From Cafeteria roenbergensis (lineage: Eukaryota; Sar; Bigyra; Bicosoecida; Cafeteriaceae): DNA of 64,000 bases. Where the stretch lies: the NCBI GenBank assembly GCA_008330645.1, contig VLTN01000052.1, positions 1 to 64,000 on the forward strand, in the 5' to 3' direction. The position numbers and the translations under genes are program-made. Below are positions 1 through 28,855 of this stretch, piece by piece. How positions within the stretch are numbered: the first letter of the stretch is position 1; each line of letters opens with the position of its first letter. The notes below the pieces were generated by a model. It ran no database searches. It worked only from the letters and a program-made list of their open reading frames with translations, and was not told the origin of the DNA.

Positions 1-473
1 AATGACAAGATGAGGGAGTGCAAGAAGAGCTCAGCTACAAAGGACAACATGAGCTCCATTGTGCCTTCGTCGTCACGACCACGGGACGCATGGGACCGGC
101 GGCCTTCGCCTTCCTCAAGAAGGTGGCGGACACGGCCTTCGGTGACCGGCCGAGGGAGCGTGCGCGCTGGGCCTTTCGCTGGCTGTCGAGGCTGAACGAG
201 GTCATCGCCAAGGGACTGGCGACCCAGCTGATCGGGCAGACGCAGTACCTGCGGCAGCAGGTGGAGCGTATGCGGTGAGCAGGGGCGGCTGAGTGGCGAC
301 TCGAGGCAGTGTGATGGCAGGGATCTGGGACTTGAGACTTGGGATTGCGGGTTTGGCGCGGTTTGTGATTCATCGGTGATGGAGTTGCTGGATTGGTGAT
401 TGGTGAGTCTGTGACTCGAGTGTGTGGCATGGTTACGCGAGTTTTCGACCCCCCCCAACGATGTTCATTCATC
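1..473 (+). mobile_element. LINE 3' end, copy 1 (runs off the left edge)
   Basis: The last part of a non-LTR retrotransposon ORF (to a stop near 278) followed by its 3' untranslated tail. It matches copies at 5493-6228 and 10985-11801 almost base for base where they overlap; the shared protein ends in the residues LRQQVERMR. After the stop comes a tail with direct repeats of 'gattggtgattgg' type and a poly-C run, ending in aacgatgttcattcatc. The reading frame differs from the other copies by small indels, so this is a dead copy. Its 5' part lies outside the window. See the copy at 10985 for the endonuclease assignment. Confidence 0.75.
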
Positions 474-608: not shown

Positions 609-3600
609 TCATCGTTGCGAAATGGCTCTAGCTCGCGCTGCCCTTTCCGTCTTTCTAGTGGCTTGTGCGAACGCCCAGAGCGCCAATCGGTGGCGGCGGA
701 ACCATCGCTGGAGTCGCTCGGCACTGCGAAGCACTTCGCTGCACGAATCACTCGTGCAAAGAGCCAGTGCGTCATCACCAGCCTGCGATTGAACAACCCG
801 CCCCGTTGGCCACAACAACTGAAATCAAGCCACTTACCACGGCAAGCAGGATGTTCAGCGAACCTTTGAGGTCGAAGCTCAACAACGGCTGAAAGAATTG
901 GTTCCACAGCGACCGATGCGCCTGTCTCTGGCGCACTAAGGGCTTTGCAAGCTGAGCGCCAATCGCAGTTTTCACATGGTTCTCGGCCTCCACGTCGGCG
1001 CCCCGGTCCAGCAGCAGCTCCGCTGTGTCCCGGTGCCCTCGTGATGCCGCTGCCATCAGCGCGGTGTCGCCATACTGCGAGGGCACATGCCAACTCACCG
1101 CACCTGAGGCATCACGGCATTGCAGCCCTCCCCCGAAACACATCCGGCCCCACCGACCTCGTCGGTCCCTGACGCGTGTATGCAGCGACACCGGCTGATC
1201 CACATCGTGCCTCGGTGTCCGCCCGTGACGCCCGGCGCCGTCCGGCACGCTGCAGCCTCGGGCGGCGCACTCACACGGTCAACGGCCTCCACGTCGGCGC
1301 CCCGGTCCAGCAGCAGCTCCGCTGTGTCCCGGTGCCCTCGTGATGCCGCTGCCATCAGCGCGGTGTCGCCATACTGCGAGGGCACATGCCAACTCACCGC
1401 ACCTGAGGCATCACGGCATTGCAGCCCTCCCCCGAAACACATCCGGCCCCGCCGACCTCGTCGGTCCCTGACGCGTGTATGCGGCGACACCGGCTGATCC
1501 ACATCGTGCCTCGGTGTCCGCCCGTGACGCCCGGCGCCGTCCAGCACGCTGCAGCCCTGCCTGTCTCACCTTGGTCTTGGCCTCCAAGTTGGCGCCCCGG
1601 TCCAGCAGCAGCTCGACAGTGTCCTTGTGGTCGCCTTGCGCCGCCAGGACCAGCGCCGTCGAGCCATCCTGCGAGGTCACGTGTCCTCAAAAACCACAGC
1701 CCAGATGGCTTATCGCCAATGCCACCTTCCGCTTGCCACCCACTAGCCGCCCCAGCACCCCATGACACCGTTCCCATGGGCATCACGGTGCATGGCCCGC
1801 CCGTGACGCCCGCACTCGGTCCGCCCCAAAAGAGCAGCCTTGCCTGTCTCACCTTGGTCTTGGCCTCCAAGTTGGCGCCCCGGTCCAGCAGCAGCTCGAC
1901 AGTGTCCTTGTGGCCGCCTTACGCCGCCCGGACCAGCGCCGTCCGGCCATCCTGCGAGGTCACGTGTCCTCAACGACCACAGCCCCAGATGGCTTATCGC
2001 CAATGCCACCTTCCGCTTGCCACCCACTAGCCGCCCCAGCACCCCATGACACCGTTCCCATGGGCATCACGGTGCATGGCCCGCCCGTGACGCCCGCACT
2101 CGGTCCGCCCCAAAAGAGCAGCCTTGCCTGTCTCACCTTGGTCTTGGCCTCCAAGTTGGCGCCCCGGTCCAGCAGCAGCTCGACAGTGTCCTTGTGGTCG
2201 CCTTGCGCCGCCAGGACCAGCGCCGTCGAGCCATCCTGCGAGGTCACGTGTCCTCAAAAACCACAGCCCAGATGGCTTATCGCCAATGCCACCTTCCGCT
2301 TGCCACCCACTAGCCGCCCCAGCACCCCATGACACCGTTCCCATGGGCATCACGGTGCATGGCCCGCCCGTGACGCCCGCACTCGGTCCGCCCCAAAAGA
2401 GCAGCCTTGCCTGTCTCACCTTGGTCTTGGCCTCCAAGTTGGCGCCCCGGTCCAGCAGCAGCTCGACAGAGTCCTTGTGGTCGCCTTGCGCCGCCAGGAC
2501 CAGCGCCGTCGAGCCATCCTGCGAGGTCACGTGTCCTCAAAAACCACAGCCCAGATGGCTTATCGCCAATGCCACCTTCCGCTTGCCACCCACTAGCCGC
2601 CCCAGCACCCCATGACACCGTTCCCATGGGCATCACGGTGCATGGCCCGCCCGTGACGCCCGCACTCGGTCCGCCCCAAAAGAGCAGCCTGGCCCGACAA
2701 ACCTTGTCCTTAGCCTCCAGGGCGGCGCCCCGGTCCAGCAGCAGCGCCACAGTGTTCCTGTGGCCACACCAAGCCGCCCTGATCAATGCCGTGCGGACAT
2801 CCTGCGAGGCCGCGAAACCTCAATGACCACAACCCTCGAGACATGACAATGGCGCCACCCCTCGCTTGCCATCCATTAGCCACCCAGCACCCCATGATAC
2901 CGCCCCCACCGGCATCACGGTCCTCGTCCCACCGGTGACGCCCTCGCGCAGTCCTTCCCAAAGGCAGCGGCCTTGCCGACTCACCCAGGTCCTGACATGC
3001 AGGTCGGCGCCCCAGTCCAGCAGCAGCTCCACAGTATCCTTGTGGCCACGCTCTGCCGCCAGAATCAGCGCCGTCGAGCCGCCCTGCGATGCCACGTGTC
3101 CTCAGCGACCACGGCCCTCAAAGCACGCCACCATCGCCACCTGCAGCTTGCCCCTCTCAAGCCAGCCAACACCCCATGACATCGCCCCCATCGCCAACAC
3201 GGTGCGTGGTCCGCCCGTGACGCCTGCACGCGGTCCGCGCCCGAAGGCAGCTGCCTCGCCTGACTCACCCCGGTCTTGGCCTCCAGGGCGGCGCCCCGGT
3301 CCAGCAGCAGCTCCACAGTGTCCTTGCAGCCACGCTCTGCCGCCCAGATCAGAGCCGTGCGGCCACCCTGCGATGCCGCATACCCCCAGCAACCACGGCC
3401 CTCAAGGCATGCCCCCATCGCCGACGCGGTCCACGGTCCGCCCGTGACGCCACGTGCAGTCCGCGCCCCAAGGCAGCAGCCTTTCCCGACTCACCCCAGT
3501 CTTGGCCTCTAGTCCGGCGCCCCGGTCCACCAGCAGCTCCACAGTGTCCTTGTGGCCACGGCCAGCCGCCATGATCAGCGCCGTCGAGCCAAACTGCAAC

Positions 3601-5368
3601 ACCACGTGCCCTCAGCAGCCACAGGTGATCCGCAAAGCCACTGATGCCACCTTCGGCTAGACTCACAGCGGCAGCCAGCACACCATTTCATCGCCCCCAT
3701 GGGCCACCGCGGTCCGCGGCCCGCCTGTGACGCCCGCGCGCGGTGCGCGCCCGAAGGCAGCAGCCTCGCCTGCCTCACCCGAGTCTTGGCCTTCAAGTTG
3801 GCGCCCCGGTCCAGCAGCAGCTCCACCGTGTCCTTGTGGCCACTCCATGCCGCCAGGACCAGCGCCGTCGAGCCATCCTGCGAGCCCACGTGTCGTCGGC
3901 GACCACAGCTCTCACGGCATGCCGTCAATGCCACCTCCCTCTTGCCACCCACGAGCAACCCAGCACCCCATGCATCGTCAACACGGTCCGCGGCCCGCCC
4001 GTGACGCCCACGCGCAGTCCGCCATCAAAACAGCAGCCTCGCCTGACTCACCCTGCCCTTGGCCTCCAGGCCAGCGCCCCTGTCCAGCAGCAGCTCCACA
4101 GTGTCCTCTTGGCCACGCTCCGCCGCCAGGATCAGCGCCATGCGACCATCCTGCGAGGCCACGTGTCCAAACCGACGAAAGCTCTCAAGGCATGCCACCA
4201 GCGCCATCTGCAGCTAATCCCCCACGAGCCACCCATGACACCGTTCCATCGCCACCGATGTCCGCGCGCCGCCCGTGACGGCCACGTGCAGTCCGCGCCC
4301 GAAGGCAGCAGCCTTGCCCGACACACCCCGGTCCTGGTCTCCAGGTCGGCACCCCGGTCCAGCAGCAGCTCCACAGTGTCCTTGTGGCCACGGCCAGCCG
4401 CCATGATCAGCGCCATGCGGCCACCCTGCGAGGCCACATGTCGTCAACACCCACGGTCCTCAAGGCATGCAACCAGCGACACCTGCAGCTTGACAGCCAG
4501 CAGCGCCCAGCACCCCATCATACCGCCCCCATCGTCAACGCGGTCAGTGGCCGGCCCGTGACGCCTGCACACGGTCCGCCCTCAAACCAGCTGACTCGTT
4601 TGACACACCCCGGCCCTGGCCCCAAGGTCGGCGCCCCGGTCCAGCAGCACCTCCAGCACGTCCTTGTGGCCACGCTCTGCCGCAATGACCAGCGCCGTCG
4701 AGCCATCCTGTGAGGCCACGTGTCCTAAACGACTTTTGCTCTCAAGGCAAGTCACCAATGCCACCTCTCGCTTGCCACCCAGCACCCCATGACACCGCCG
4801 CCATCGCCACCGCGGTCCGCGGCCCGCCTGTGACGCCCACGTGCAGTCCGCCATCAAAACAGGAGCCTTGCCTGACTCACCCTGTCCTTGGCCTCCATGT
4901 CGGCGCCCCTGTCCAGCAGCAGCTCCGCCATGTCCTTGCGGCCACGCCACGCCGCCATGATCAGCGCCGTCCGACCGCGCTGCGAGGTCACATGCCCTCC
5001 ACAACCACAACCCTCTCGGCATGCGATTGGCGACACCTGCAGCTAGCTGCCCACCGGCACCCGTGACGCAATGCTGCTGACCCGATCACCGTCGCGCCCC
5101 GGACTGTCCCGCATGTTTCCCCGCGCGGTCCGTGGAGCAGAAGCCTAACTGGCAGTACAAAGACAACTTGCTGGATGTATTGGACCTCATCCCCTCGTCA
5201 GCGAGCGGGGAGCATGCTAGAAGCCTCAGCGCTCACGGCTGCGACATGTTTGCAGTTCAACGGCGCGCCCGCATCGAGCAGCCTGCTGGCCTCGGCAGTG
5301 TTCCCGGCCATCGCCGCCTCCCAGAGCGCGCTTGCCATTGCATTTGCCTCCACAGCAGTTGTGGCCAT
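609..5368 (-). CDS. ankyrin-repeat protein, one repeat per 99-bp exon
   Basis: Model of 17 exons on the minus strand. Exon 1 (5237-5368, 44 codons) starts at ATG 5368 and encodes an N-terminal ankyrin-like cap (SALWEAAMAGNTAEASRLL). Fifteen exons of exactly 99 bp follow: 4881-4979, 4609-4707, 4327-4425, 4052-4150, 3779-3877, 3495-3593, 3269-3367, 2985-3083, 2703-2801, 2420-2518, 2137-2235, 1853-1951, 1570-1668, 1275-1373 and 976-1074. Each encodes one 33-residue ankyrin repeat of the form DGSTALVLAA...ELLLDRGA. All introns are phase 0, with donors GTGAG, GTTTG, GTGTG or GTGAA and acceptors mostly CTCGCAG. The last exon (609-782) encodes a basic, amphipathic tail. The product would be 596 residues and presumably a binding scaffold. 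Exon 1853-1951 carries an in-frame TAA at 1919-1921, so the gene either skips that exon (frame is kept), is damaged, or has a sequence error. Reading through the last donor to a stop at 775, which would give a hydrophobic end, is an alternative. LINE remnants flank it on both sides. Confidence 0.75.
976..4979 (-). repeat. tandem exon-intron unit array (15 exons, period about 283 bp)
   Basis: The 99-bp ankyrin exons are separated by introns of mostly 173-200 bp (one of 127 bp), and the introns are similar to one another as well. Between 1570 and about 2700 the units are nearly identical across both exon and intron with a period of 283-284 bp, while units above 2800 have drifted. This is the mark of tandem duplication of a whole exon-plus-intron unit with recent homogenisation at the 3' end of the gene. 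Confidence 0.85.
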
Positions 5369-5492: not shown

Positions 5493-6228
5493 GCAATCTC
5501 CGCGATGTCCTGCACGCGGCGGTGCGCTCGGCGGGCTGCAGTCGGTGGTGGAGCCCTCCAGCTGGCAGGACGGGCAGACGCGCTTCGGGTCCCAGCCGGG
5601 TCCAGCGAGGCCGCGCGCAAGCGACCGGACCTGCGGGTGCACGTCGACTTCGAGACCACCTGTCTCGTCGACGTGCAGATCACCTCGGCGGTGAGCAAGT
5701 CCTACGTGACGCAGGGCCTGCAGAACATGGACGCCTTTCTCGAGCGCCGTGAGCATGACAAGATGAGGGAGTACAAGAAGAAGCTCAGCTACAAAGGACA
5801 ACTTGAGCTCCATTGTGCCCTTCGTCATCACGACCACGGGACGCATGGGACCGGCGGCCTTCGCCTTCCTCAAGAAGGTGGCGGACACGGCCTTCGGTGA
5901 CCGGCCGAGGGAGCGTGCGCGCTGGGCCTTCCGCTGGCTGTCGAGGCTGAACGAGGTCATCGCCAAGGGACTGGCGACCCAGCTGATCGGGCAGACGCAG
6001 TACCTGCGTCAGCAGGTGGAGCGTATGCGGTGAGCAGGGGCCGCTGTGTGGTGACTCGAGGCAGCGTGATGGCAGGGATCTGGGATTTGAGACTTGGGAT
6101 TGTGGGTTTGGCGCGGTTTGTGACTCATCGGTGATGGAGTTGCTGGATTGGTGATTGGTGAGTCTGTGACTCGAGTGTGTGGCATGGTGACGCGAGTGTT
6201 CGACCCCCCCAACGATGTTCATTCATCG
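5493..6228 (+). mobile_element. LINE 3' end, copy 2 (5'-truncated)
   Basis: Similarity to copy 3 begins near 5493. It contains the endonuclease signature (RPD...VDVQITSAVSKSYV) and then, after an indel that changes frame near 5775-5810, the conserved end (VPFV.TTTGRMGPAAFAFLKKV to LRQQVERMR, stop about 6033). The roughly 195-bp tail carries a poly-C run and ends in aacgatgttcattcatc, as in copy 1. The truncation point lies about 125 bp upstream of the ankyrin gene start. The frame change makes it non-functional. Confidence 0.75.
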
Positions 6229-7316
6229 GCGCTGCTGGGCAGCTCAATCCCACACACACTCAACGCATCTTCCATGTCCTTCGTCATCAACTTTCGCAGG
6301 ACCACGCTGTCTGCAGGCAGCCGCAGGTCCCACAGCTGGACGCTTCGTGGCGCGTCTGCGGCGCTGCCAGTGGCGTTTGGCACGCCTTCTTCGAGGATTA
6401 ACGCTGTGGGGGTCTCGGGAATCCGGACGAGGCCGGTGTCCCTGCCTCGTCGGGCCGTCTTAATGAGCTTCGTGGTGATGACGGACGAGCACAGGACCAT
6501 TTCGGTGCATCCCTTGGCAATGTCATTGTCCATGATCCTTGCTATCAGCGACCGCTTGCCGGGGATGTCGCTCCAGGCCTTGTCGGGCTCGGGACTTGGC
6601 TCGACGGCACTCCGCAGCTCCGTCGCCATTTCGAACATGCCAGTCTGCAACTTCGCCGCCGTTGCAGCCGACATCTCCTTCGGCGCACCGGACAGCGAAG
6701 GCTCACGTGCCTTGGACTGGAGCAGAAGGACGTAAACGCAATCCCTGACCGCGAACACGACCATGACATCCACGCCGCCCCAGTCATTCCGATGCTTGAG
6801 GAGCTGCCACGGCTTGATCGGCTCGTCGCTCTTGACAGCCGCCACAACTTTGGGATCCTTGCTTGTGCCTCCCCACACCATGATTGGCTTTAGAGGTGGC
6901 GGCGACGGAAGCGTCTCTCCATCCTTGGCGACAAGGCGATGGCTGACCAGCGCAGCAGCGGCGCCAGCCGTCGAGGCTGTCGCGGCAAGCCGCTCCATCA
7001 GCATTCCGGAGCACTCTCGCCCTGGCGCAAACCTGGCCATGCAAGCCGACACAAACGCCTGGAACCCACTGTGGAGCAGCTCGGCCGCGAGCAAACGTTC
7101 GAAGTGGTCGCTCAGTCCCAGGCTCGCAGGGCTCACCAAGGCCATCAACTCAACCGAGGTGAGAGCGGATCCGGCGAGAACGAGCTGCACGGCAAAGGAG
7201 CTCCACACTTGGCCGGGCAAGACGAGCGAATCTGTGCGAGTCCGGCCCCGAAAGAAGCCGACTTCATGCCAAAAGTCTGCCGCAGCTTCGATGTCAGCAC
7301 CTCCCTGTGCCGTGCA

Positions 7317-7389
<73 letters not shown>

Positions 7390-10327
7390 GTGACACGAAG
7401 CCCTCGAGCTCCTTGGTGTGCGCCGCGTCCTTTCCAAAGAGCCGCTGCGACGCCGCCAGCGCAGCGCTCAAAAGCGACTGCGGTGTCACGAAGCCTGACG
7501 TCGTCTCGGCGGTGGAGCTCGACTCATGCATTGGCATCCCTCCTGCTTTCGTCAGCCCGGTGCTTGAGCCGGAGAAATCCGGCTTGAGTTGCCCGAGAAA
7601 GGCCATTCCGACTGCCTTTAGGAGGACCAAGCGCTGAGGGACACGCTTAGCAGCGGCAACGAGCTCCCGGAACCGTCGATACTGATCATTGAGGGCAGCC
7701 TCGACCGCGTTTTCGAAGCCGCCTTCGACAACCGCGCCCCACTTCATCTGAAGGAGAGCTCGTGGGTTGCCGTTGGATGCCGTCACCAACGGCGCAATGA
7801 TATCCTGGGCTTCTTTGTCCGACTCGGGCAAGGTTTCCATGAAGCGAGTCAACTCCGCGGAGTGCTGCCACTGGGACGTCCGCAGAAAGCTCAGACCCTG
7901 GGATTCCTCGAGATAGGGGACCGGATCGAGGGTCTGCAACTTGCTCGTGTTGAATGCATGCCCGAACGAGCTGTACGAGGAGCCGGGTGCCACTGAGAGC
8001 GCGAACTCTGGCATACTCACGCCGCTCTTGAGGACGGTGGCGCTGTGCGCGTTGTGGTGCTGCGTCACCTCTTCGTCATACGCTGAACCGCGAATGAGGC
8101 GGGGAAGAAGAGCCGAGCTGCCAGTGATCACAATCCGCACTGGGATGTTCAATTCGTAGTGGTACTCCACCAAGTCGGAAAAACTTTTGAGGGCGTGGCA
8201 GTCAACGTAGTAGTTCTGGCTCTCGTCGAAGCACAAGGTCATGCTGATCTTGGGAGAGCGCTCGTGGCCGTCGAGCATGTCTCCGAACGTGGCACTGTCG
8301 TCCTGGCCAATGGCAGTCCAAGGGGACACTTTCATCGTCTCCATGCGCTCTGCGGCGACCTCAAGCCCAGACTTGCCACCCAGGTGAGCGTCGAGGTACC
8401 CCAGGCGAAGCATGGCTCTCCACACCACGTTGCTCGGATCTCGGGCCGCAGCTTCAACGATGCGGCTTGCAAGCTCCGACTGCTTGGCAACATGGCTGAC
8501 ATCCGCCCGCCCCGGGTCGCCTGATGGCCGCAACACAATCACCGTGCTTCGCTCTTCGCCGTGAGCGGCTCCCAAGAATGCGTTGGCGAAACCCATCGAG
8601 AGCAACGTCTGCGTCTTGCCAGCGCCACGGGGTCCCGTGAAATGGAAAGAGTTGCCTGGTGGACTTGGCCTCGCGCAACTGAATGCTTGGCTGATCCAAG
8701 AGCCCCTAGGCTCTGTGCGCCTCCTGAAGTAAACGTCAGGCAGGTGGCTCTTCGCGACATTGGCCTGCCTGTCTTGTGCAGTCAAGAACACCGGCGGACA
8801 GGTCGTTGCCGTGCAGTGAAGAATATCAAAAAGCGCGGGTTGGCATGCCAGCCAACTGGGGTCATCCCACGATTTGAACTTGACTACCAGGCGCTCCGCC
8901 ACGGCCGTGAGGCCAGCTTGGGACAGGTCCTCGGGAGGGACTGCAGCGCCGGCATCCTCTGCTAGCTTGCAGGCGTTGTCGACTGACCGCTGCTTGAGCC
9001 GACGGCTGAGGTGAACGACGCTAGCTGGCAGATCAGCCATCACCGGGCTGTCGGCTGGCAGCCTGCTGACCAGCGCTGCCTGAACTCGCAGGATGAGAAC
9101 GTCCAAGAGGGCTTTGCCTTGCCGTCCGTCGATGACCACCATGTGGCGGTCCAACACCGGAAACAGCGCTCGGGCTGGAGCAAGCCGGAGTTCCTGCTCC
9201 ACGGCCTCGCGCTTGGCCTTCTCGGCCTTCTCCTCGGCCTCGCGCTTGGCTTTCTCGGCCTGCCTTTCGGCCTGCTTCTCAGCCCTTGCCAGCAAGACGT
9301 CTGCATGCTTCTGCACTGTGTCGCCGGCGGACGGCTTGAACATGCCCTCCGCAAACTCTCCGGCCACGGACTGCAGGTGGCCCAGCCGGTGCCACTTGGC
9401 CAGCTGCGCTTTTCCGCCGGCCATGTGCAGAGTCACCCCGGCATGCTGAAGCACCGCGTCGATGTCGGTGGAGTGGGCGAGGTCGACGCTGGCGGTGCCG
9501 AGCCTTCCAATCAGCTTGACGATGTCCTTGGTGTCGTCAGAGCGGAGCCCCTTGGCGGCTCGCAGCCTCGTGATGAACGCGAAAAAGGCCCGCCCAAGCC
9601 TAAGCCGGGAGCTGGCGACTTCCGGCGGGACGAAGGACAACGAGAGTACCCCGAGGACTAAATCGATGGCGTCGGTTCCGGCTTCCTCCTGGGTCAGGTG
9701 GTCGGCAGCCCACCGCTCGGCGTCAGTCGAAAATAGCTGGGAGGCCGTCTCCGACACCGCGGAGCTCAGAGGACGCATCGGCGCGGAGGCTGCGCCCGTC
9801 GTCAAGTCACGTTGATCCGTGGCTAGGCGCGTCCCAAGGGGAGCTGCTGCGGCAGAAGAAGCCGCAGCTGCACCAGCACTTGTGTGCTCGGCTGCCGCTG
9901 GCCAGCTTCCGTCAGCACCGACATTTTGTCCTCGTCGATGATGCTTGGTCTTGCTCGCTTCCTGGCTGGACTTCTTGGCCCTTTTGCCCGCCTTGGACTT
10001 CTTGTGCTTCTTGGAGTCCCGGTGCTCCTTGCGCTCAGCGGGACGATGTGCCTCCGCAACTCCGGCTTGACGCTGGCCCTCCTTCACAACGGGCTGGGCA
10101 GCAGAGGCGCCGGCATCGCCAGCTTCCTCTCGGCGGGATCGCTTGCCAGTCCGGACATCGCCGGCAACACCGCGCTCGCGCTCGCGCCCGCGCTTGGCGG
10201 CGCGCCGGCCGCTTGGCTTCGCCCGCGACAAAACAGGCGAGGTTGAATTCGAGGACGACTGAGAGGCCGACGACGGCAAAAAAGAAGAAGACGAGGTGGA
10301 TGAAGAGGATGACGGCCGGTCCGCCAT
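6219..10327 (-). CDS. P-loop NTPase with nuclease-like C-terminus, CRN/RHS-like
   Basis: Suggested start ATG 10327. The N-terminus is Ser-rich and then very basic (KKHKKSKAGKRAKK), which suits a nuclear protein. A helical stretch rich in EKQAERQAEKAKREAEEKA lies around 9180-9290. A Walker A motif GPRGAGKT lies near 8620-8645 and a Walker B-like LCFDESQNYY near 8215-8245, followed by a sensor-like VITGSS near 8125. An alanine run of about 25 residues is encoded at 7318-7386. The C-terminal part, open down to 6219, contains D..GVDVMVVF....YVLLLQSK, which resembles the core of a PD-(D/E)XK nuclease. NTPase plus such a nuclease is the layout described for Crinkler/RHS-type proteins; that assignment is an inference. 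Coding lies in two overlapping frames, which could mean an intron; I have not resolved it and cannot say whether the gene is intact. Its stop codon falls in the antisense of LINE tail copy 2. Confidence 0.55.
7318..7386. repeat. (CTG)n trinucleotide run, 23 units
   Basis: An uninterrupted CTG/CAG run inside the NTPase-nuclease gene, read there as GCA codons giving polyalanine. Its perfection suggests length polymorphism. Confidence 0.9.
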
Positions 10328-10984
10328 GGTCGTGGGAGGGGCCGCTGGCCTCAGGTGCTGCGCTCTGCGAGGGCGGGGCCGGCAGCGAGCAGGGCGCAAG
10401 GGGACGCAGTGCAAGCTGTCTTTGACAAACCACGGCGCGCGAGCACGCTGCAGCCGTCCCTCAGCGTCAGCCCCGCCCAGCAAAATGACCGGCAACGTGC
10501 ACGCTCCGATCATGCCGTGAAGGCACTGCGATGGGCACGTGCCAGCGCTGCGTCGGGCGCCCCGGCAGAGAGAGCGACCTGGAAAACGGAACGGCCGCCT
10601 CCCCCGCACCTCACGATCCACGGGGCCGAGCAGCACCAGCCCCAAGATGAGCGCAGCAAGCTCGGGAAGAAGGAGCGGGGAGCAGTGCGGGGCAGCGGGC
10701 GGCCGCGTTTGCTGCTCGCTCTGGCGCGCAAGAGTGCAGTCTTTTTTGGCAGCCGCGACAATTGGCAGAGCCCGCGACCGCGCAGCAGCGCTCTCGCGCC
10801 GGCGGCAGTTGCAGGGTGTCACACCAAGGCGCGCTAGGGCCGCCACACGCAGGCAAGGGACCGATGCTTGACCCATGAGGTAGGCGCGGCGCCACACAAA
10901 CATGCCCCGGGGCGCTAGGCTCGGCCCTCGCGAGGGCGCGGCGCTGAACGCTCCGAGTCGGCTGGTTTTGGGCGCCACCGCGAG
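10328..10984. other. spacer between NTPase gene start and LINE copy 3
   Basis: About 650 bp with no supported gene. The frame of the NTPase gene stays open upstream through this stretch, but the residues look like translated GC-rich non-coding DNA, so I treat it as 5' untranslated or promoter sequence. The boundary with the LINE is approximate. Confidence 0.4.
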
Positions 10985-11801
10985 AGGCACCGTCCACATT
11001 GGCGGGGTCTCGGGCGTGGCGCACCACCTGGCGCGCTGCCGCTGCGGCAAGGGCTCCACCATCCGGGCGCACAACGACGTCCGCGACGTCCTGCACGCGG
11101 CGGTGCGCTCGGCGGGGCTGCAGTCGGTCGTGGAGCCCTCCAGCTGGCAGGACGGGCAGGCGCGCTTCGGATCCCAGCCGGGGTCCAGCGAGGCCGCGCG
11201 CAAGCGACCGGACCTGCGGGTGCACGTCGACTTCGAGACCACCCGTCTCGTCGACGTGCAGATCACCTCGGCGGTGAGCAAGTCCTACGTGACGCAGGGC
11301 CTGCAGAACATGGACGCCTTCCTCGAGCGCCGTGAGAATGACAAGATGGGGGAGTACAAGAAGTGCTCAGCTACAAAGGACAACATGAGCTCCATTGTGC
11401 CCTTCGTCGTCACGACCACGGGACGCATGGGACCGGCGGCCTTCGCCTTCCTCAAGAAGGTGGCGGACACGGCCTTCGGTGACTGGCCGAGGGAGCGTGC
11501 GCGCTGGGCCTTTCGCTGGCTGTCGAGGCTGAACGAGGTCATCGCCAAGGGACTGGCGACCCAGCTGATCGGGCAGACGCAGTACCTGCGACAGCAGGTG
11601 GAGCGTATGCGGTGAGCAGGGGCGGCTGAGTGGCGACTCGAGGCAGCGTGATGGCAGGGATCTGGGATTTGAGACTTGGGATTGTGGGTTTGGCGCGGTT
11701 TGTGACTCATCGGTGATGGAGTTGCTGGATTGGTGATTGGTGAGTCTGTGAATCGAGTGTGTGGTATGGTGACGCGAGTGTTCGCCCCCCCCCAACGATG
11801 C
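10985..11801 (+). mobile_element. LINE 3' end, copy 3 (longest, RLE-type)
   Basis: The longest of the three LINE ends. An open frame to the stop at 11613-11615 contains a Cys/His cluster (CRCGKGSTIRAHND) and then RPD, 13 residues, D (RPDLRVHVDFETTRLVDVQI). That fits the R/KPD-X12-14-D/E signature of the restriction-like endonuclease found at the C-terminus of R2/CRE/NeSL-type LINEs. The reverse transcriptase itself is absent, so this is a 5'-truncated copy. The tail (11616-11801) matches the other copies and ends in a C run and aacgatgc, but what follows differs. A frame shift relative to the presumed ancestor remains around 11365-11395. Confidence 0.75.
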
Positions 11802-16377: not shown

Positions 16378-19300
16378 TTATTCATCGTCGCTCTCTGCGC
16401 CCAGCAGCTGCGCAAACGCAGCAACCACGTCGTGCTCATCTCGTTCCTCTGTCGGCGTCTCGTCGCTGGCCGCTGTGGCTCCCGCGCTTGCCCTGGCGGC
16501 CTTGGCCGGCTTCGCCTTGGCAGCCGCTGCCCTGGCTGCCCTGGGCTTGGCCGCCCTTGCAGGCCTGGCAGTCCCGGCAGGAGCAGCCGATGCGCGCGCC
16601 GGAGGAGACGCTGCAGCGGGCGCAGGTCGGCTTGGAGTCGCCGTGCTTGACTGAGAGTACAGCTCGCACAGCTGTGACGGACCCAAGCGTGCGCCGCCCG
16701 CCCTGCGGCGCGCCAGAATGCTGACACGGCGGCGGCACGCGCTGGCGTCGCGAGACTCGCCCAAGTCGCTCGCAACGGCCTCCCAGTCGACATCTGCGCG
16801 GGAATCGTCCACAAGTTCGGGGTTGGATAGGGCAAACAGCAAGGGTGGCAGTCAGTAGAAGAGGTGGAATGGCGCGTCGGAGGGGAGGCGCGGAGGGGGG
16901 GGGGGGGGGGGAAGAATGGCAGCGGCAGTCAGCCCAGGCCCGTGGCTGGCTTGGCGCGCCGTGGGGGTGTCGGCCAAACCGACCTCTCGCAGCCTAGTGG
17001 TGCTCGGCAGGGCGCCAATCGCGCCCGCAGGGGCGGCAAGGGTCCCCGGGAAGCCACGGGCGAGCGGCAGCAGCGACCTTACACTGCCCCCCAGCCAGCC
17101 AGCCAGCGCACGAGTGGCTGCACTGCATGCGCCAGCGCAAGGCACTCACCCGGCCATGCGTCCGCCTCCTCGCGGGCGAGCGCTTGGAGAAGCGTAGCCT
17201 CCTCCGCCTCGGTCCAGCCGGTGCCGTCTTCTGCGTTGCCGAACTCCGTCCGGTGCCACTTTCCCCAGCAATCCGAGCCCGACCGCGTCCCCACGGCCGC
17301 GCCAATGTCCCGCCAGCACACCTCCTTTCCGGTCCGAGCCGCCTCTTCCCTCGCAGCTGCCACTGCCGCCCGCAGCTTCTCCTCCTCCTCCTCGCTGAAC
17401 GGGCCTCGCTGCCTGCCGCGCTCCTCCAGCGCCTGGGCCTCGGGTCCGAACATCTTCACCCACTGCTGGCGGCACGCGTCGCGGGGCCTCCCCAGCTCCG
17501 TCGCCACCAGGCCCCACTTTCCGGGTTTGCCCCTGCTAGCCACCTCCTGCGAAGCCGCACACCAGACACGTCACCGGGAGAAAGGCACGGGAACGGGGAT
17601 GGGGAAAGGGGGGGCGCAGGGCAGGAGGTGCAGTGTGACGCGACGCGGCGTGGCGTGACGTGACGCGAGGCGTGCCAGAGTCGCGCCTGACCGCGCAGCC
17701 GCACAGTGGCACGGCAACTCGACTGCGCGAAGCAGGGCCGCTGCGACCGCAGCAACTGTGCGAGAGGGGTCAGGCGTGCCGCAGCGGGGCACTGCCCAGG
17801 GGGGGCATGCTTTCTCGGCGCCTTGGCCAGGCCACAAGCCAGCGACAAAGGCGCTGAGCGGAACCCCGTCCGCCGCCTGTGAGTGGCACTCACTGCGACC
17901 AGGAGAGGCTTGCCGGGCGTCACCCCTCTCCCCGCCCCTAAACGCCAACCCGTTGCAGTGTCGGGCGCAGCGCTGCCACTCACCGCCTGCTGCAGGGCCT
18001 TGAGCTCTGCCTGCGTCCAGGGCGTGCCGCTCGCGGTGGCGGCCGCCGCCTGCTCGGCAGCGCCGTCGCCTGGCCTCGCCGTGCTCAGTTGCGCCGGGAT
18101 CAATGTTTGCGCATGGTAGAATATGTCCTTGACGCTGCGCCAGCGGAAGCGGCGGGCGAGCGTGAGCCAGAAGCCCTTCCTGTGCAGGCCAACGCGCTTC
18201 ACGCCCTCCGTGACGAGCCGCACCGCCTCTGCCCGTGACAGCCCGTGCTCCGACGCAGCGAGGGCAAAGAAGTGTCGGATCAGCTGCGGTGGCACGGGGC
18301 AGAGGCCGGAATGGGGCGGGGCAGCGGCCGGAATGGGGCGGGGCAGCGGCCGGAATGGGGCGGGGCAGCGGCCGGAATGGGGCGGGGCAGCGGCCGGAAT
18401 GGGGCGGGGCAGCGGCCGGAATGGGGCGGGGCAGCGGCCGGAATGGGGCGGGGCAGCGGCCGGAATGGGGCGGGGCAGCGACCGGAATGGGGCGGGGCAG
18501 CGGCCGGAATGGGGCGGGGCAGCGGCCGGAATGGGGCGGGGGCAGCGGCCGGAATGGGGCGGGGCAGCGGCCGGAATGGGGCGGGGCAGCGGCCGGAATG
18601 GGGCGGGGCAGCGGCCGGAATGGGGCGGGGCAGCGGCCGGAATGGGGCGGGGCAGCGACCGGAATGGGGCGGGGCAGCGGCCGGAATGGGGCGGGGCAGC
18701 GGCCGGAATGGGGCGGGGCAGCGGCCGGAATGGGGCGGGGCAGCGGCCGGAATGGGGCGGGGCAGAGGCCGGAATGGGGCGGGGCAGCGGCCGGAATGGG
18801 GCGGGGCAGCGGCCGGAATGGGGCGGGGCAGCGGCCGGAATGGGGCGGGGCAGCGGCCGGAATGGGGCGGGGCAGCGGCCGGAATGGGGCGGGGCAGCGG
18901 CCGGAATGGGGCGGGGCAGCGGCCGGAATGGGGCGGGGCAGCGGCCGGAATGGGGCGGGGCAGAGGCCAGAATGGGGCGGGGCAGCGGCCGGAATGGGGC
19001 GGGGCAGCGGCCGGAATGGGGCGGGGCAGCGGCCGGAATGGGGCGGGGCAGCGGCCGGAATGGGGCGGGGCAGCGGCCGGAATGGGGCGGGGCAGCGGCC
19101 GGAATGGGGCGGGGCAGCGGCCGGAATGGGGCGGGGCCGCGACCGGAATGGGGCGGGGCAGCGGCCGGAATGGGGCGGGGCAGCGGCCGGAATGGGGGCG
19201 GGCAGCGGCCGGAATGGGGCGGGCAGCGGCCGGAATGGGGCGGGGCAGCGGCCGGAATGGGGCGGGGCAGCGGCCGGAATGGGGCGGGGCAGCGACCGGA

Positions 19301-21208
19301 ATGGGGCGGGGCAGCGGCCGGAATGGGGCGGGGCAGCGGCCGGAATGGGGCGGGGCAGCGGCGGAATGGGGCGGGGCAGAGGCCGGAATGGGGCGGGGCA
19401 GCGGCCGGAATGGGGCGGGGCAGCGCCGGAATGGGGCGGGGCAGCGGCCGGAATGGGGCGGGGCAGCGGCCGGAATGGGGCGGGGCAGCGGCCGGAATGG
19501 GGCGGGGCAGCGACCGGAATGGGGCGGGGCAGCGGCCGGAATGGGGCGGGGCAGCGGCCGGAATGGGGCGGGGCAGAGGCCGGAATGGGGCGGGGCAGCG
19601 GCCGGAATGGGGCGGGGCAGCGGCCGGAATGGGGCGGGGCAGCGGCCGGAATGGGGCGGGCAGCGGCCGGAATGGGGCGGGGCAGCGGCCGGAATGGGGC
19701 GGGGCAGCGGCCGGAATGGGGCGGGCAGAGGCCAGAATGGGGCGGGGCAGCGGCCGGAATGGGGCGGGGCAGCGGCCGGAATGGGGCGGGGCAGCGGCCG
19801 GAATGGGGCGGGGCAGCGGCCGGAATGGGGCGGGGCAGCGGCCGGAATGGGGCGGGGCAGCGGCCGGAATGGGGCGGGGCAGCGGCCGGAATGGGGCGGG
19901 GCAGCGGCCGGAATGGGGCGGGGCAGCGGCCGGAATGGGGCGGGGCAGCGGCCAGAATGGGGCGGGGCAGCGGCCGGAATGGGGCGGGGCAGCGGCCGGA
20001 ATGGGGCGGGACAGCGGACCTGACGACGGAGGCAGGGTGCGAGAGCGTGGCACGGCCCGCGAAACACCGCCCGCATCCGCTCAGACCACGCGCTGCTGCA
20101 TGCTGCGATGCAATGCGCTGCTTCGCGCTGCAATGCGCTGCTCTGCGCGCTGCGGTGCTCTGCGCTGCAATGCGCTGCAATGCTCTGCGATGCAATGCGC
20201 TGCTTCGCGCTGCAATGCGCTGCAATGCGCGCTGCGGTGCTGGCTCACGTGCTGGTCCTCCGCCTCCCGCCACTTGCCCTTGACGAAGGCGGCTGCGTTC
20301 TCCTTGTGCTCAGCCCAGTTGTGGTCGTACATGCCGTCGATGGCTTGCGGCAAGCCGGGCGCCGAGGCCTTGCTCGCCCCGCACTCGTCCAGCCACGAGG
20401 CGTCCAGCGCCGAGCCAGAAGCAGCTGCTGCAGCTGCTGCAGCAGCGACGGCGGCCCCGTCCCGGCCGGCGGCCGTACCGCCTCCGGCAGCGGCAGCGGC
20501 GGCGCCGACGGGAGGGCTCGAAGCGGCAGCCGAGGACTGCGCGGGGCCCGACGCGGCAGCCTGGCCAACGACTGGTCGCTTCGCGGCCGCTGCCGGCCGG
20601 ATGGCCGTCGCGCCCCTGGGTGCGCTGCGCTGCGCTGCCGAGGCGAGGGGCATGGCCACCGGGCGGATTGGCCTGGCTCTGCCGATGACGGAAGGGCGAC
20701 CCGCCGGCGAGGCGCGCGCGGTGGGTCTGCGCCCCGCGCTGGCTTGGCTGACGGGGAGACGGGCCGCCGCGCCCGCCGCGCCCTGTGCGACGGACGACGC
20801 GGATGACAAGGGCGGTGGCTGTGAGGGCGCGATGGCCGTCGCTTCGTCGACGGATGCCGTGGGCGCGCTGCTGGCAGGCTCCCGCTCCGGCGACTGCTGC
20901 TCGCTCCCCCCCATGCGCGGCACGACGATCTTCACGGCGCTGGACGGCGGGGCGGAGGCCTCGCTGGCCGACCGAGGGCGCTTCGCGTGGGAGCCCTCGC
21001 TTGTGGCGCTGCTGCCTGCGCGCTCGGCGGCTCGAGCGCGCTTGCGCGCGGCCCGCTCCTCCTTGCGCTGGCGCTTCTCCTGGCGCCGCGCCTTCCGCGC
21101 CGCTCGCTCGGCCGGGTCCTCATCGCGGTGGCGGTGCTTCTTGGCGCGCTTGGCGTCGTCGCTGCGCGACCCCGCCGGCGAGGCGGCAACTGCTCCTGCA
21201 TCGGCCAT
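16378..21208 (-). CDS. multi-Myb DNA-binding protein, TTF1/Reb1-like
   Basis: Four exons: 20249-21208, 17984-18283, 17150-17546 and 16378-16793, 690 residues from ATG 21208. Residues 1-90 are lysine/arginine-rich and nuclear-like, followed by a long Ala/Pro/Ser region. Then come several Myb/SANT-like units: one beginning KGKWREAEDQ at the exon 1 end; KGFWLTLARRFRWRSVKDIF; GTPWTQAELKALQQA continuing across an intron into KWGLVATELGRPRDACRQQW; RGPFSEEEEEKL...; and GTGWTEAEEATLLQAL running into VDWEAVASDLGESRDASACRRR. This arrangement is typical of Pol I transcription terminators and relatives (TTF1, Reb1, DMTF1), which bind DNA near rDNA terminators; the exact orthology is inference. The Myb units spanning introns support the model. 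Intron 1 (1,965 bp) is filled by a minisatellite. The gene is divergent from SmD2 with 300 bp between the start codons. Confidence 0.75.
16895..16911 (-). repeat. poly-C tract (sense) in the Myb-gene last intron
   Basis: Seventeen G on the + strand, read as C in the transcript, about 100 nt upstream of the acceptor of exon 4. Confidence 0.7.
18296..20018. repeat. 22-bp GC-box minisatellite, about 78 copies
   Basis: A tandem array of the unit GGGGCGGGGCAGCGGCCGGA+AT (22 bp) over about 1.72 kb, inside intron 1 of the Myb gene. Variants are scattered through it: cagcgacc, cagaggcc, ggccagaat, and single-base losses or gains such as GGGGGC. The unit contains a consensus Sp1-type GC box (GGGGCGGGGC) and an EagI site, and each copy is G-rich on the + strand, the template strand of the host gene. 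Because 22 is not a multiple of 3 and the unit has few stops on either strand, it generates long phantom reading frames of 590-1,250 codons on both strands; none is coding. Confidence 0.95.
20095..20246. repeat. degenerate short tandem array (tgcgctgc / aatgcgctg)
   Basis: An irregular array of 10-15-bp units such as gcaatgcgctg and cttcgcgctg, lying between the minisatellite and the exon 1 donor of the Myb gene. It is unrelated to the 22-bp unit. Confidence 0.75.
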
Positions 21209-26560: not shown

Positions 26561-28855
26561 TCAAGAGCGAGAGTCAAAGTCAAAGACCACGAGCTGTTCG
26601 TCGCTGGGCGGCGCTCGGCAGAGCAGCGACAGCGCGGAGGACACGTCGAACGTGGGAGCTATGCCGACCGGCCGCGCCGCGAAGGGGTTCGGAAGCGACT
26701 GCGCGCACGGGGGCACCGGTAGCGCCGGAGGCGCGAGCCCGGGCGCAGGGCGGAAGGCGGGCAGTGGCGATGCTCCTGGCGCCGTTGCCGCCTCCTCGGC
26801 AGCCACAGCCGCCCTCGCTGCCCTCTCAGCCTCCGCCGCCCTCTTGGCCGCCGCCGTCTGCTCGGCCTCCGCCGCCCTCTTGGCCGCCGCCGCCTGCTCG
26901 GCCTCCGCCGCCCTCTTGGCCGCCGCCGCCCTCTTGGCTGCCGCTGCTTGCTCAGCCTCCGCCGCCCTCTTGGCCGCCGCCGCCTGCTCGGCCTCCGCCG
27001 CCCTCTTGGCCGCCGCCGCCTGCTCGGCCTCCGCCGCCCTCTTGGCCGCCGCCGCCTGCTCGGCCTCCGCCGCCCTCTTGGCCGCCGCCGCCTGCTCGGC
27101 CTCCGCCGCCCTCTTGGCCGCCGCCGTCTGCTTTGCCGCCGCCGCATCTCGCCGCTCCTTTCGGCGCCGCTGCCTGGACGCTGCCCTTCGTTCCGCGTTC
27201 CTTGCTGCCTCGGCGGCCTGTCGCTGCTCCTCCTCCAGCACGCGCTCCAGCTCTCGCCGCGCCGCCTCGAGTCGCTCGTCCTCGCTTGCCACAGCGGCGG
27301 CCGGCGGGCCCGGCGCGCTGCTCGTCTTCGCTTCTTGCTCGCCCTTGCTGCCAGCCGCAGGAGCCGCCCCGAGCTCGGCCGACGGGACCGCTGCCTGCCC
27401 GCCGGCCGGCCCCGTTTTGACAGCACCTCGCAAGCCCGTCGTCGGCCCTGCTGTCGCGGGTTGCGCTCTGAACCTAACCGGCTCAGGCGCGGCGACGGGC
27501 TGGAGCGACGCCCCTGCTGCCGAGGCCGTCTCAGGGACCTTGCCGGCGCGACCAGCGCTGCGCCGCCCGCCGGATCGCACACCGGACCGAGCGGAGGCGA
27601 GGCCGCGGGGTGCCAGTTGCGCGGGTGCTGCCCCTGCCGCCGGGGCGCCCCGCACGCTGGTCGGGCCCTGCTGATGGAAGGGCAGCACCGAGGGAGGCAC
27701 GACCGTCGGGCGGCCCGCGCCGGCGGGCTGCGTGACCGATTCGTCGTCGCTGCTCTCCGTGTCGCTGCTGCCGAGCGCGGAGTACACGCGGAAGAGCGGC
27801 TGGTCCAGGTCCGCGAGCTCCGCCCGCGTCCTGCTGAGGGCGAGCCGGCCCCTGGGCCCGCCCGGTCTGGCGCCGCAGTCATCGCCACCTCGAGGCTCTG
27901 CACCCGGTGCGGAGCTGCTGGCCTTGCCGCCAGCGCCGGTCGCCGGCCCCGGGACAGCATCGCCTTGCGCAGCCCTGAGCGCGGCCTGGAGGCTGGCGAG
28001 CTTGAGGCGCGACCTCGTGGCCATGGCCGTGCGGGACAGCGGCGAGGGCGTCTTGGCCAACCGTTCGAGACACAGAGGCAGCTGGCGGTCGGACGAGCTC
28101 ACGCGCGCCTCGCTTCGACCGCTTTCGCTGTCGCCGGCGCCGCGTCCGCCTTGGCCACTGCTGTTGCTGCGAGCGGCGTGGGTCACCGTAGCGTGAACCT
28201 GCGACCGCTGGGCTGCGCTGCCGGGCTCGGCGGTCGGCGAGGCCGGCTCAACCGCATGGGGAGCCGCGGCCAATGCAGGCGACGCCTTGCGCCCGGAGGC
28301 AGCCGTGGCGGGCGAGGGGGCTGAGGTGCCGGACGGTGCCGGCCCAGGCGGGTCGGTTCGGGGCGTGCGCACCGTGCGGCCCGCCGCCATCATGGCGCGC
28401 TTGTGGAAGGCCAGCGCGGCGCGTTCAGCTGGGGGCAGCTCAAGCACTGCGATGACGCAGCCGCCTTCCGACGGAGCTCCCTGCAGGGTCACGCGGACCA
28501 CAGCACCGCGGCAAGCAGCGTGGGGGATGGTCATGGACGCGCCACCGCCCCGGGACACGACCACCGTCTGCTCGCCAGCCCAGCCGGGGAGTGGAGTGCC
28601 CGGCAGCGGACAAACCACCACTGTGACGTCCTCAGGCACGTCAGCGGTGAGGCGGAACCGGACGCGCGTCCCAGGCGCAACGCTTAGCTGCCCTGGTCGG
28701 AACGCGTTGAGTCCGGGGCCCGGGCGGCCCACGTTCACCACGGCGCAAGGCGGTGAGAGGACATCTGGATTGGCCAGCTTTCCGCCGCTCGCGTTCGCGG
28801 CTCTTCGGCCGAGTGCAGGCCGCGCGCTCCCGACGGGCGGGGAGCCCACGCTCAT
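26561..28855 (-). CDS. unrecognised coiled-coil protein with 12-residue repeats
   Basis: Not recognised. ATG 28855 is the first that precedes sequence of protein-like composition, giving 764 residues without an intron; a start further upstream is possible. Residues about 40-170 look like a beta-sandwich (alternating hydrophobics: VRFRLTADVPEDVTVVVCPL, VVRVTLQGAP). The middle is disordered and Ser/Pro/Ala-rich. From about residue 530 a long charged helix begins (ERLEAARRELERVLEEEQRQ), and residues about 573-678 consist of the repeat KRAAEAEQAAAA. The C-terminus is Pro-rich and ends VVFDFDSRS. A structural or cytoskeletal role would be a guess. The 3' end converges on L7a. Confidence 0.7.
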   Translation of the reverse strand: MSVGSPPVGSARPALGRRAANASGGKLANPDVLSPPCAVVNVGRPGPGLNAFRPGQLSVAPGTRVRFRLTADVPEDVTVVVCPLPGTPLPGWAGEQTVVVSRGGGASMTIPHAACRGAVVRVTLQGAPSEGGCVIAVLELPPAERAALAFHKRAMMAAGRTVRTPRTDPPGPAPSGTSAPSPATAASGRKASPALAAAPHAVEPASPTAEPGSAAQRSQVHATVTHAARSNSSGQGGRGAGDSESGRSEARVSSSDRQLPLCLERLAKTPSPLSRTAMATRSRLKLASLQAALRAAQGDAVPGPATGAGGKASSSAPGAEPRGGDDCGARPGGPRGRLALSRTRAELADLDQPLFRVYSALGSSDTESSDDESVTQPAGAGRPTVVPPSVLPFHQQGPTSVRGAPAAGAAPAQLAPRGLASARSGVRSGGRRSAGRAGKVPETASAAGASLQPVAAPEPVRFRAQPATAGPTTGLRGAVKTGPAGGQAAVPSAELGAAPAAGSKGEQEAKTSSAPGPPAAAVASEDERLEAARRELERVLEEEQRQAAEAARNAERRAASRQRRRKERRDAAAAKQTAAAKRAAEAEQAAAAKRAAEAEQAAAAKRAAEAEQAAAAKRAAEAEQAAAAKRAAEAEQAAAAKRAAAAKRAAEAEQAAAAKRAAEAEQTAAAKRAAEAERAARAAVAAEEAATAPGASPLPAFRPAPGLAPPALPVPPCAQSLPNPFAARPVGIAPTFDVSSALSLLCRAPPSDEQLVVFDFDSRS
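26828..27133 (-). repeat. 36-bp coding minisatellite (12-residue unit), about 8 copies
   Basis: The unit gcctccgccgccctcttggc+cgccgccgcctgctcg (36 bp) encodes KRAAEAEQAAAA in the coiled-coil gene. One partial unit gives KRAAAAKRAAEAEQ. The near identity of units suggests recent expansion. Confidence 0.9.

Follow-up and report, generated by a model that had tools for sequence, protein, structure and literature searches.

The window analysed here, 64 kb from the start of contig C52 in the Cafeteria roenbergensis assembly (36.3 Mb in 167 contigs, from a bicosoecid stramenopile), carries on its minus strand a 17-exon ankyrin gene at 609-5368. The gene belongs to a large family whose typical member is built of a fixed N-terminal cap (N-cap) exon, a variable number of 99-bp exons encoding one ankyrin repeat each, and a fixed C-terminal cap (C-cap) exon, all in phase 0. 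In this family, units of one exon with its intron have been copied, lost and recombined, within arrays and between loci, with the reading frame kept. Judging from the sequences, we think it likely that the family encodes germline binders resembling the designed ankyrin repeat proteins (DARPins), whose one-repeat cassettes undergo unequal exchange while diversifying selection acts on them.

In the window gene, fifteen ankyrin exons at 976-4979, each exactly 99 bp long, preceded by AG, followed by GT and encoding a single 33-residue repeat, stand between one N-cap and one C-cap exon, and every junction is in phase 0 [Table 1]. The 14 introns between the ankyrin exons measure 127-200 bp and the two outer ones 257 and 193 bp; 13 of the 16 have lengths not divisible by three. 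The one exon compared with the Pfam Ank model (PF00023), ankyrin exon 11, matched positions 1-33 of 33 (E 1.5e-8, above the cut-off), such that the ends of this exon are the ends of the model. A preliminary description of the window had proposed both the 17 exons and the fifteen phase-0 ankyrin exons, all of which were recovered, and had attributed the array to tandem copying of an exon-plus-intron unit, which the alignments bear out: across units, exon sequence pairs with exon sequence and intron sequence with intron sequence, some units being 98-100% identical over 281-300 bp. That description left the strand unstated and overlooked an in-frame TAA at 1919-1921, which falls in ankyrin exon 12 at codon 11, a hypervariable codon in the family. 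As assembled, the predicted spliced message of this copy meets a stop after 417 of 596 codons; the copy is therefore truncated, decaying or wrongly sequenced, and we infer that it is a truncated or decaying member of the family. The cassette build reported for this one gene thus stands, whereas its treatment as a case by itself does not, the gene being a stop-interrupted member of a large family.

The extent of the family was gauged with three queries. A 372-bp exon-intron-exon query returned 344 genome matches, with many contigs involved among the matches listed (~150), and the N-cap and C-cap exons returned 101 and 94 matches, respectively (E 0.001 or better), these being counts of matches rather than genes in which both alleles of some loci are possibly included. 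The cassette form was found in all 20 loci read. Sixteen of the arrays come from the upper part of the match list of the 372-bp query and thus resemble that of the window; they hold 3-23 units each, several (C74, C6, C10, C20 and C88) being cut by the end of the stretch read or of the contig. The unit finder demands AG, 99 bases, and GT or GC, and these features of the counted units hold by construction. It recovered 164 units of exactly 99 bp with phase-0 borders, 163 of them stop-free, and a looser motif check for missed units added two of 98 bp, the last unit of L046 (C20) and the fifth of L048 (C88), each reflecting a frameshift or an assembly indel, so that 164 of the 166 units in the 16 loci are 99 bp long. 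None of the 17 units of C10, counted up to its contig end, contains a stop. Four further loci contributed 33 more units of cassette form; three of these loci (L094, L095 and L097, on contigs C63, C78 and C51) represent a divergent clade with a period of mostly 329-347 bp and donors that are mostly GTCAGC or GTCAGT. The array of the window is not a product of chance, since the same scan finds no unit at 6500-64000 of the window, nor in six of eight loci with intronless ankyrin arrays in the same genome. Contigs C39 and C107 gave matches equal in score and identity, suggestive of a recent duplicate or a second allele in the assembly.

The top database match to a query made of the N-cap and four units is a C. 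roenbergensis protein, with further proteins of that species lower down. Genes in the Cafeteria assembly paper average 1.67-1.89 introns (PMC6972860), and genes with at least a dozen introns therefore stand out. Among the matches listed for the literature on Cafeteria and ankyrin, no paper title concerns this cassette family; in the text of one Cafeteria expression paper, ankyrin appears once, as a domain row of an enrichment table (PMC7852580).

Splicing of the cassettes is predicted from splice signals, frame, selection and database gene models. Two positions that the scan leaves free, the C ahead of the acceptor AG and the donor T, are nearly invariant (0.00 and 0.01), and 120 of the 147 introns between units would, if retained, shift the frame or add a stop. 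Inspection of eight Cafeteria database proteins indicated that the 33-residue register runs through the units in seven of them, P0167 being irregular; the N-cap exon is present in six of the eight and the C-cap exon ends three (P0126, P0167 and P0180). FNF29_07236, a protein of the same assembly, is an exact match to units 1-5 of the C63 gene in L094, joined at the cassette borders, before running on past the fifth donor with the sixth unit missed. The database gene models are independent but imperfect.

Comparison of paralogous arrays is informative as to how they change. Units 1-9 of the window gene correspond in order to units 1 and 6-13 of C10 (89-99% exon identity), four additional C10 units sitting between the counterparts of window units 1 and 2. 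The near-identical units form a run of three in C10 and of four in the window gene, and for the final two window units C10 offers no close match (75% at best). The array of C59 is ~98.5% identical to that of the window over 3.2 kb, yet the retroelement is reached after just seven units. That units are gained and lost in frame, as anticipated in the preliminary description, is thus borne out between paralogues (15 units in C52 versus 17 in C10, with the shared units collinear), while between strains it is indicated by predicted proteins. One of these, FNF27_05402, corresponds to C43 with 3 units rather than 10 and a different first exon; when it is aligned to C43 units 1, 2, 6 and 10 and the C43 C-cap, one clean 33-residue stretch is absent, and the junction left by its absence falls within an exon, where the front part of one unit continues into the back part of a different one. 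Another, FNF31_07820, counts three units against the four of C68. The assembly is very probably that of the BVI strain, now called C. burkhardae (PMC8547959). Within the 99 bp themselves, four-gamete violations were found in all six arrays tested of the 16, implying at least 3 to 9 exchanges per array if mutation does not recur. In-register unequal exchange together with short conversion tracts would explain the mosaics of units and exons alike.

Variation between units is concentrated at particular codons. Across most units of C55, C43, C15 and C68, neither the 30-bp flanks nor the majority of framework codons differ, and alternatives occur at codons such as 1, 3, 8, 11, 12, 15, 32 and 33. 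Four joined units of C55 gave strong matches to solved ankyrins and DARPins, and in an alignment to a DARPin, exon codons 33, 1, 3, 11, 12 and 31, which we take to be DARPin positions 2, 3, 5, 13, 14 and 33, fall where the designed repeats vary. Six positions per repeat are randomised in DARPins (PMC6590788). Mean entropy was 2.54 bits at the six DARPin-type codons versus 0.90 elsewhere (permutation p 0.0002), and the approximate ratio of non-synonymous to synonymous substitution rates (dN/dS) was 2.08 at the six surface codons (bootstrap over loci 1.60-2.89) versus 0.56 (0.50-0.65) at the remaining, framework codons. It exceeds 1 at the surface codons in all 16 loci, barely so in three (1.07-1.17). 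A neutral comparison was drawn from pairs of units with one flanking intron at most 3% different (73 and 67 pairs, which are not independent and come mostly from C20, C55 and C43). In these pairs the other intron differs by 0.065-0.072, framework third positions by 0.068-0.072 and framework first and second positions by 0.050-0.067, as against 0.277-0.302 for the first and second positions of surface codons, an excess of about fourfold over the other intron or the framework third positions. This comparison replaces a raw contrast between surface codons and introns (0.248 versus 0.0175 in 39 pairs; 0.255 versus 0.011 in 27 disjoint pairs) that was inflated by the choice of pairs.

The members closest to the window gene have a distinct genomic position. 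Forty-four of the 101 N-cap matches have at least 69% identity, 38 of them on contigs of at least 60 kb, and 30 of these 38 lie at most 20 kb from a contig end (against an expected upper bound of 18%; p 9e-16), the three limits having been picked after the match lists were seen and the counts not being fully independent, as some contigs carry two close members. All 30 are transcribed outward, towards that end. The 57 divergent matches, 51 with known contig extent, have no such polarity (7 towards versus 8 away near the ends of long contigs). The 3' part of a retroelement found on either side of the window gene has 77 genome matches; among the best 41 of these 77, 36 lie near the ends of long contigs, 35 of the 36 pointing inward. 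Contig C14, another carrier of this repeat, has at its start a reverse-transcriptase piece with a match to RVT_1 (one of two retroelement pieces scanned against Pfam). Contig C57 starts with 16 bases of (CTAAC)n, namely (CTAAC)3C, followed directly by the retroelement; this is the only such place in the assembly, and the retroelement is possibly a telomere-associated element. The polarised contig-end regions that hold the close members are probably subtelomeric. Separately, the contig starts at L061 (C16:1-300) and L093 (C161:1-300) seem richer in AT than the genome as a whole, which is 70% GC. In this species, endogenous virophages have been described whose GC signature is distinct (PMC8547959).

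By the reading that we favour, the spliced products would be DARPin-like solenoids made of an N-cap, n repeats and a C-cap, predicted to bind their partners via the concave face and the beta-turn tips. Selection would preserve the framework but promote replacements at surface codons, and the resulting variants would be reshuffled between units by unequal exchange and by short tracts of gene conversion; the residence of close members and of the retroelement in polarised, probably subtelomeric regions would be expected to make ectopic exchange frequent. The likely role of such proteins would be the recognition of variable partners, whether viral, bacterial or self. A wider proposal, which we advance tentatively and regard as possible, is that of a natural germline DARPin-like repertoire of up to about a hundred genes, with close members biased to chromosome ends, recombination-shuffled cassettes and a selected paratope, through which a single-celled predator would renew its intracellular binders against rapidly changing partners, for instance giant viruses, virophages or prey molecules.

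A number of observations weigh against the favoured reading. The window copy itself has its premature TAA, and 68 of the 147 introns between units are multiples of three. Recurrent mutation at hypervariable codons can also give four-gamete violations, and dN/dS is approximate in that units exchange sequence and pairs of units are not independent. The fit to DARPins is partial: codon 8, the most variable of all, and codons 7, 15 and 32 are not among the six DARPin positions, and at codon 31, which is, variation is just moderate. TTTAGGG x3 and TTAGGG x3 are absent from the assembly, in which a (CTAAC)n end occurs once. Contigs C10, C20 and C88 end inside arrays, and part of the nearness to contig ends may therefore be due to assembly breakage, which accounts less easily for the consistent orientation. 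Finally, surface dN/dS also reaches 1.5-3.0 at five loci with intronless 34-residue ankyrin arrays in the same genome, of which two are near-duplicates. This rules out surface diversification as special to the cassettes; it is therefore better seen as a habit of this organism's ankyrin arrays, the cassette form being a separate feature.

Other explanations need to be weighed against the same evidence. The arrays might stem from an ordinary ankyrin gene that underwent tandem duplication and concerted evolution neutrally, its surface codons varying just for want of constraint. The surface positions of ankyrin repeats are generally less conserved, and the intronless arrays of the genome vary at the same positions, both of which speak for this explanation; we nevertheless consider it unlikely, as surface codons differ by 0.28-0.30 against ~0.07 for the other intron and framework third positions, and relaxed constraint cannot exceed the neutral rate. 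It is more doubtful still that the window holds a dead array, that is, a 283-bp satellite-like repeat with fossil ankyrin exons that are neither spliced nor translated. Such a state would accommodate the TAA in exon 12, the two 98-bp units at other loci and the start of the contig within a copy of the retroelement, but a stop in just 1 of 164 units, constrained framework codons, loci elsewhere with stop-free units such as the 17 of C10, and database gene models that splice at the same borders all argue against it.

The presence of alternatives at set codons amid largely identical flanks and framework in C55, C43, C15 and C68, and of a reverse-transcriptase element next to arrays, invites comparison with bacterial and phage diversity-generating retroelements, in which case a mutagenic or template-driven process would write codons at set positions. 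We hold such targeted diversification to be very improbable. By inspection of the codon tables of C55 and C43, adenines are not singled out and third positions change as well, and mutagenesis of the diversity-generating type is unsupported, the codon alternatives differing at all bases. Framework third positions, moreover, diverge about as much as introns, and nothing beyond selection and exchange is therefore required. Least probable in our estimation is an artefact of assembly, with unit number, homogenised introns and mosaics all produced by mis-assembled or mis-polished repeats. Several contigs do end inside arrays, near-duplicate loci such as C39 and C107 exist, and the assemblies were made from 13-45x PacBio data with polishing (PMC6972860). 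Against this, units are collinear between C52, C59 and C10, the same units recur in proteins of other strains, and surface-specific change is not expected from assembly error.

Table 1. Exons of the window gene and flanking retroelement copies, in window coordinates
Feature	Position	Strand	Evidence or remark
Exon 1, N-cap half-repeat (MATTAVEANAMASALWEAAMAGNTAEASRLLDAGAPLNCKHVAA), 132 bp	5237..5368	-	ends in phase 0 at GTGAGC; exon type has 101 genome matches
Ankyrin exon 1, 99 bp	4881..4979	-	unit scan, gene model
Ankyrin exon 2, 99 bp	4609..4707	-	unit scan, gene model
Ankyrin exon 3, 99 bp	4327..4425	-	unit scan, gene model
Ankyrin exon 4, 99 bp	4052..4150	-	unit scan, gene model
Ankyrin exon 5, 99 bp	3779..3877	-	unit scan, gene model
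Ankyrin exon 6, 99 bp	3495..3593	-	unit scan, gene model
Ankyrin exon 7, 99 bp; short 127-bp intron before it	3269..3367	-	unit scan, gene model
Ankyrin exon 8, 99 bp	2985..3083	-	unit scan, gene model
Ankyrin exon 9, 99 bp	2703..2801	-	unit scan, gene model
Ankyrin exon 10, 99 bp; run of near-identical units starts here	2420..2518	-	unit scan, gene model
Ankyrin exon 11, 99 bp	2137..2235	-	unit scan, gene model; Pfam Ank matched over all 33 positions
Ankyrin exon 12, 99 bp, with in-frame TAA (1919..1921, codon 11)	1853..1951	-	unit scan, gene model
Ankyrin exon 13, 99 bp	1570..1668	-	unit scan, gene model
Ankyrin exon 14, 99 bp; 286-bp unit 98% identical to next unit	1275..1373	-	unit scan, gene model
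Ankyrin exon 15, 99 bp	976..1074	-	unit scan, gene model
Last exon, C-cap (AGDDALALCTSDSCSEVLRSAERLQRWFRR...), 174 bp with stop	609..782	-	94 genome matches; also in database proteins P0126, P0167, P0180
Retroelement 3' part, upstream of gene	5640..6230	+	repeat found at contig ends
Second copy of retroelement 3' part, downstream of gene; contig starts inside it	1..471	+	repeat comparison

Elsewhere in the window, a 22-bp minisatellite at 18295-20017 (~78 copies, 97% match; CGGGGCAGCGGCCGGAATGGGG) overlaps long open frames on both strands. A 1378-codon open frame at 7145-11281 on the minus strand contains a P-loop-like stretch (GPRGAGKTQTLL) as well as a TGC repeat at 7313-7386 that encodes poly-alanine, and a 974-codon minus-strand open frame includes a 36-bp in-frame repeat at 26816-27145 (9 copies, 91% match).

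Ankyrin exons that respect repeat borders were considered unusual in the preliminary description but do have precedents: vertebrate ankyrin genes (ANK1-3) have many repeat exons of 99 or 198 bp matching the 33-residue unit. These vertebrate genes are few, and their repeats and introns are old and divergent, without recent homogenisation of cassettes; what stands out in Cafeteria is the uniformity and scale of the exon cassettes rather than repeat-matched borders alone. The intronless 34-residue arrays of the same genome (L001-L005; C20, C28, C126 and C162) likewise form long arrays with variable surface positions, but do so in one open frame with no introns, with a 102-bp period and another consensus. 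A survey of domain repeats found duplication of ankyrin four domains at a time to be more dominant, and exon shuffling to be possible for some families only (PMC1553488), beside which ankyrin cassettes duplicated one at a time look unusual. DARPins share with the predicted products the succession of N-cap, n internal 33-residue repeats and C-cap, and the variable positions largely coincide; DARPins, however, are synthetic, and the Cafeteria repeats, whose binding role is a prediction from sequence, vary also at exon codons 7, 8, 15 and 32. Cafeteria is the host of CroV and mavirus (PMC6972860). Should the surface-codon signal reflect binding, the host of these two viruses would carry a recombining repertoire of ankyrin binders, and how protists recognise variable partners would become directly testable.

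The closest known case is that of the leucine-rich repeat (LRR) genes of Tetrahymena with 90-bp exons (PMC6564038). In both systems, tandem exons of one exact length, each worth one solenoid repeat, have been duplicated together with their introns, in a single fixed intron phase and within a large species-specific family. The adjacent retroelement lacking long terminal repeats and the unequal crossing-over proposed for Tetrahymena have counterparts here, and the subtelomeric enrichment of its young members may have one in the contig-end bias of the close members. The main text of that paper uses "hypervariable", "diversifying" and "positive selection" zero times, and "purifying" three times (PMC6564038). 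The Cafeteria family is not the Tetrahymena LRR family, since fold, exon length, phase and lineage differ: the ciliate exons are 90 bp long and in phase 2, with repeats interlocking across exons, whereas those of the stramenopile are 99 bp long and in phase 0, each with a self-contained repeat, and are accompanied by fixed N- and C-cap exons and by diversification of surface codons. The exon-cassette design now has a stramenopile example, which uses a different repeat fold and the cleaner arrangement of phase 0, each exon amounting to one repeat.

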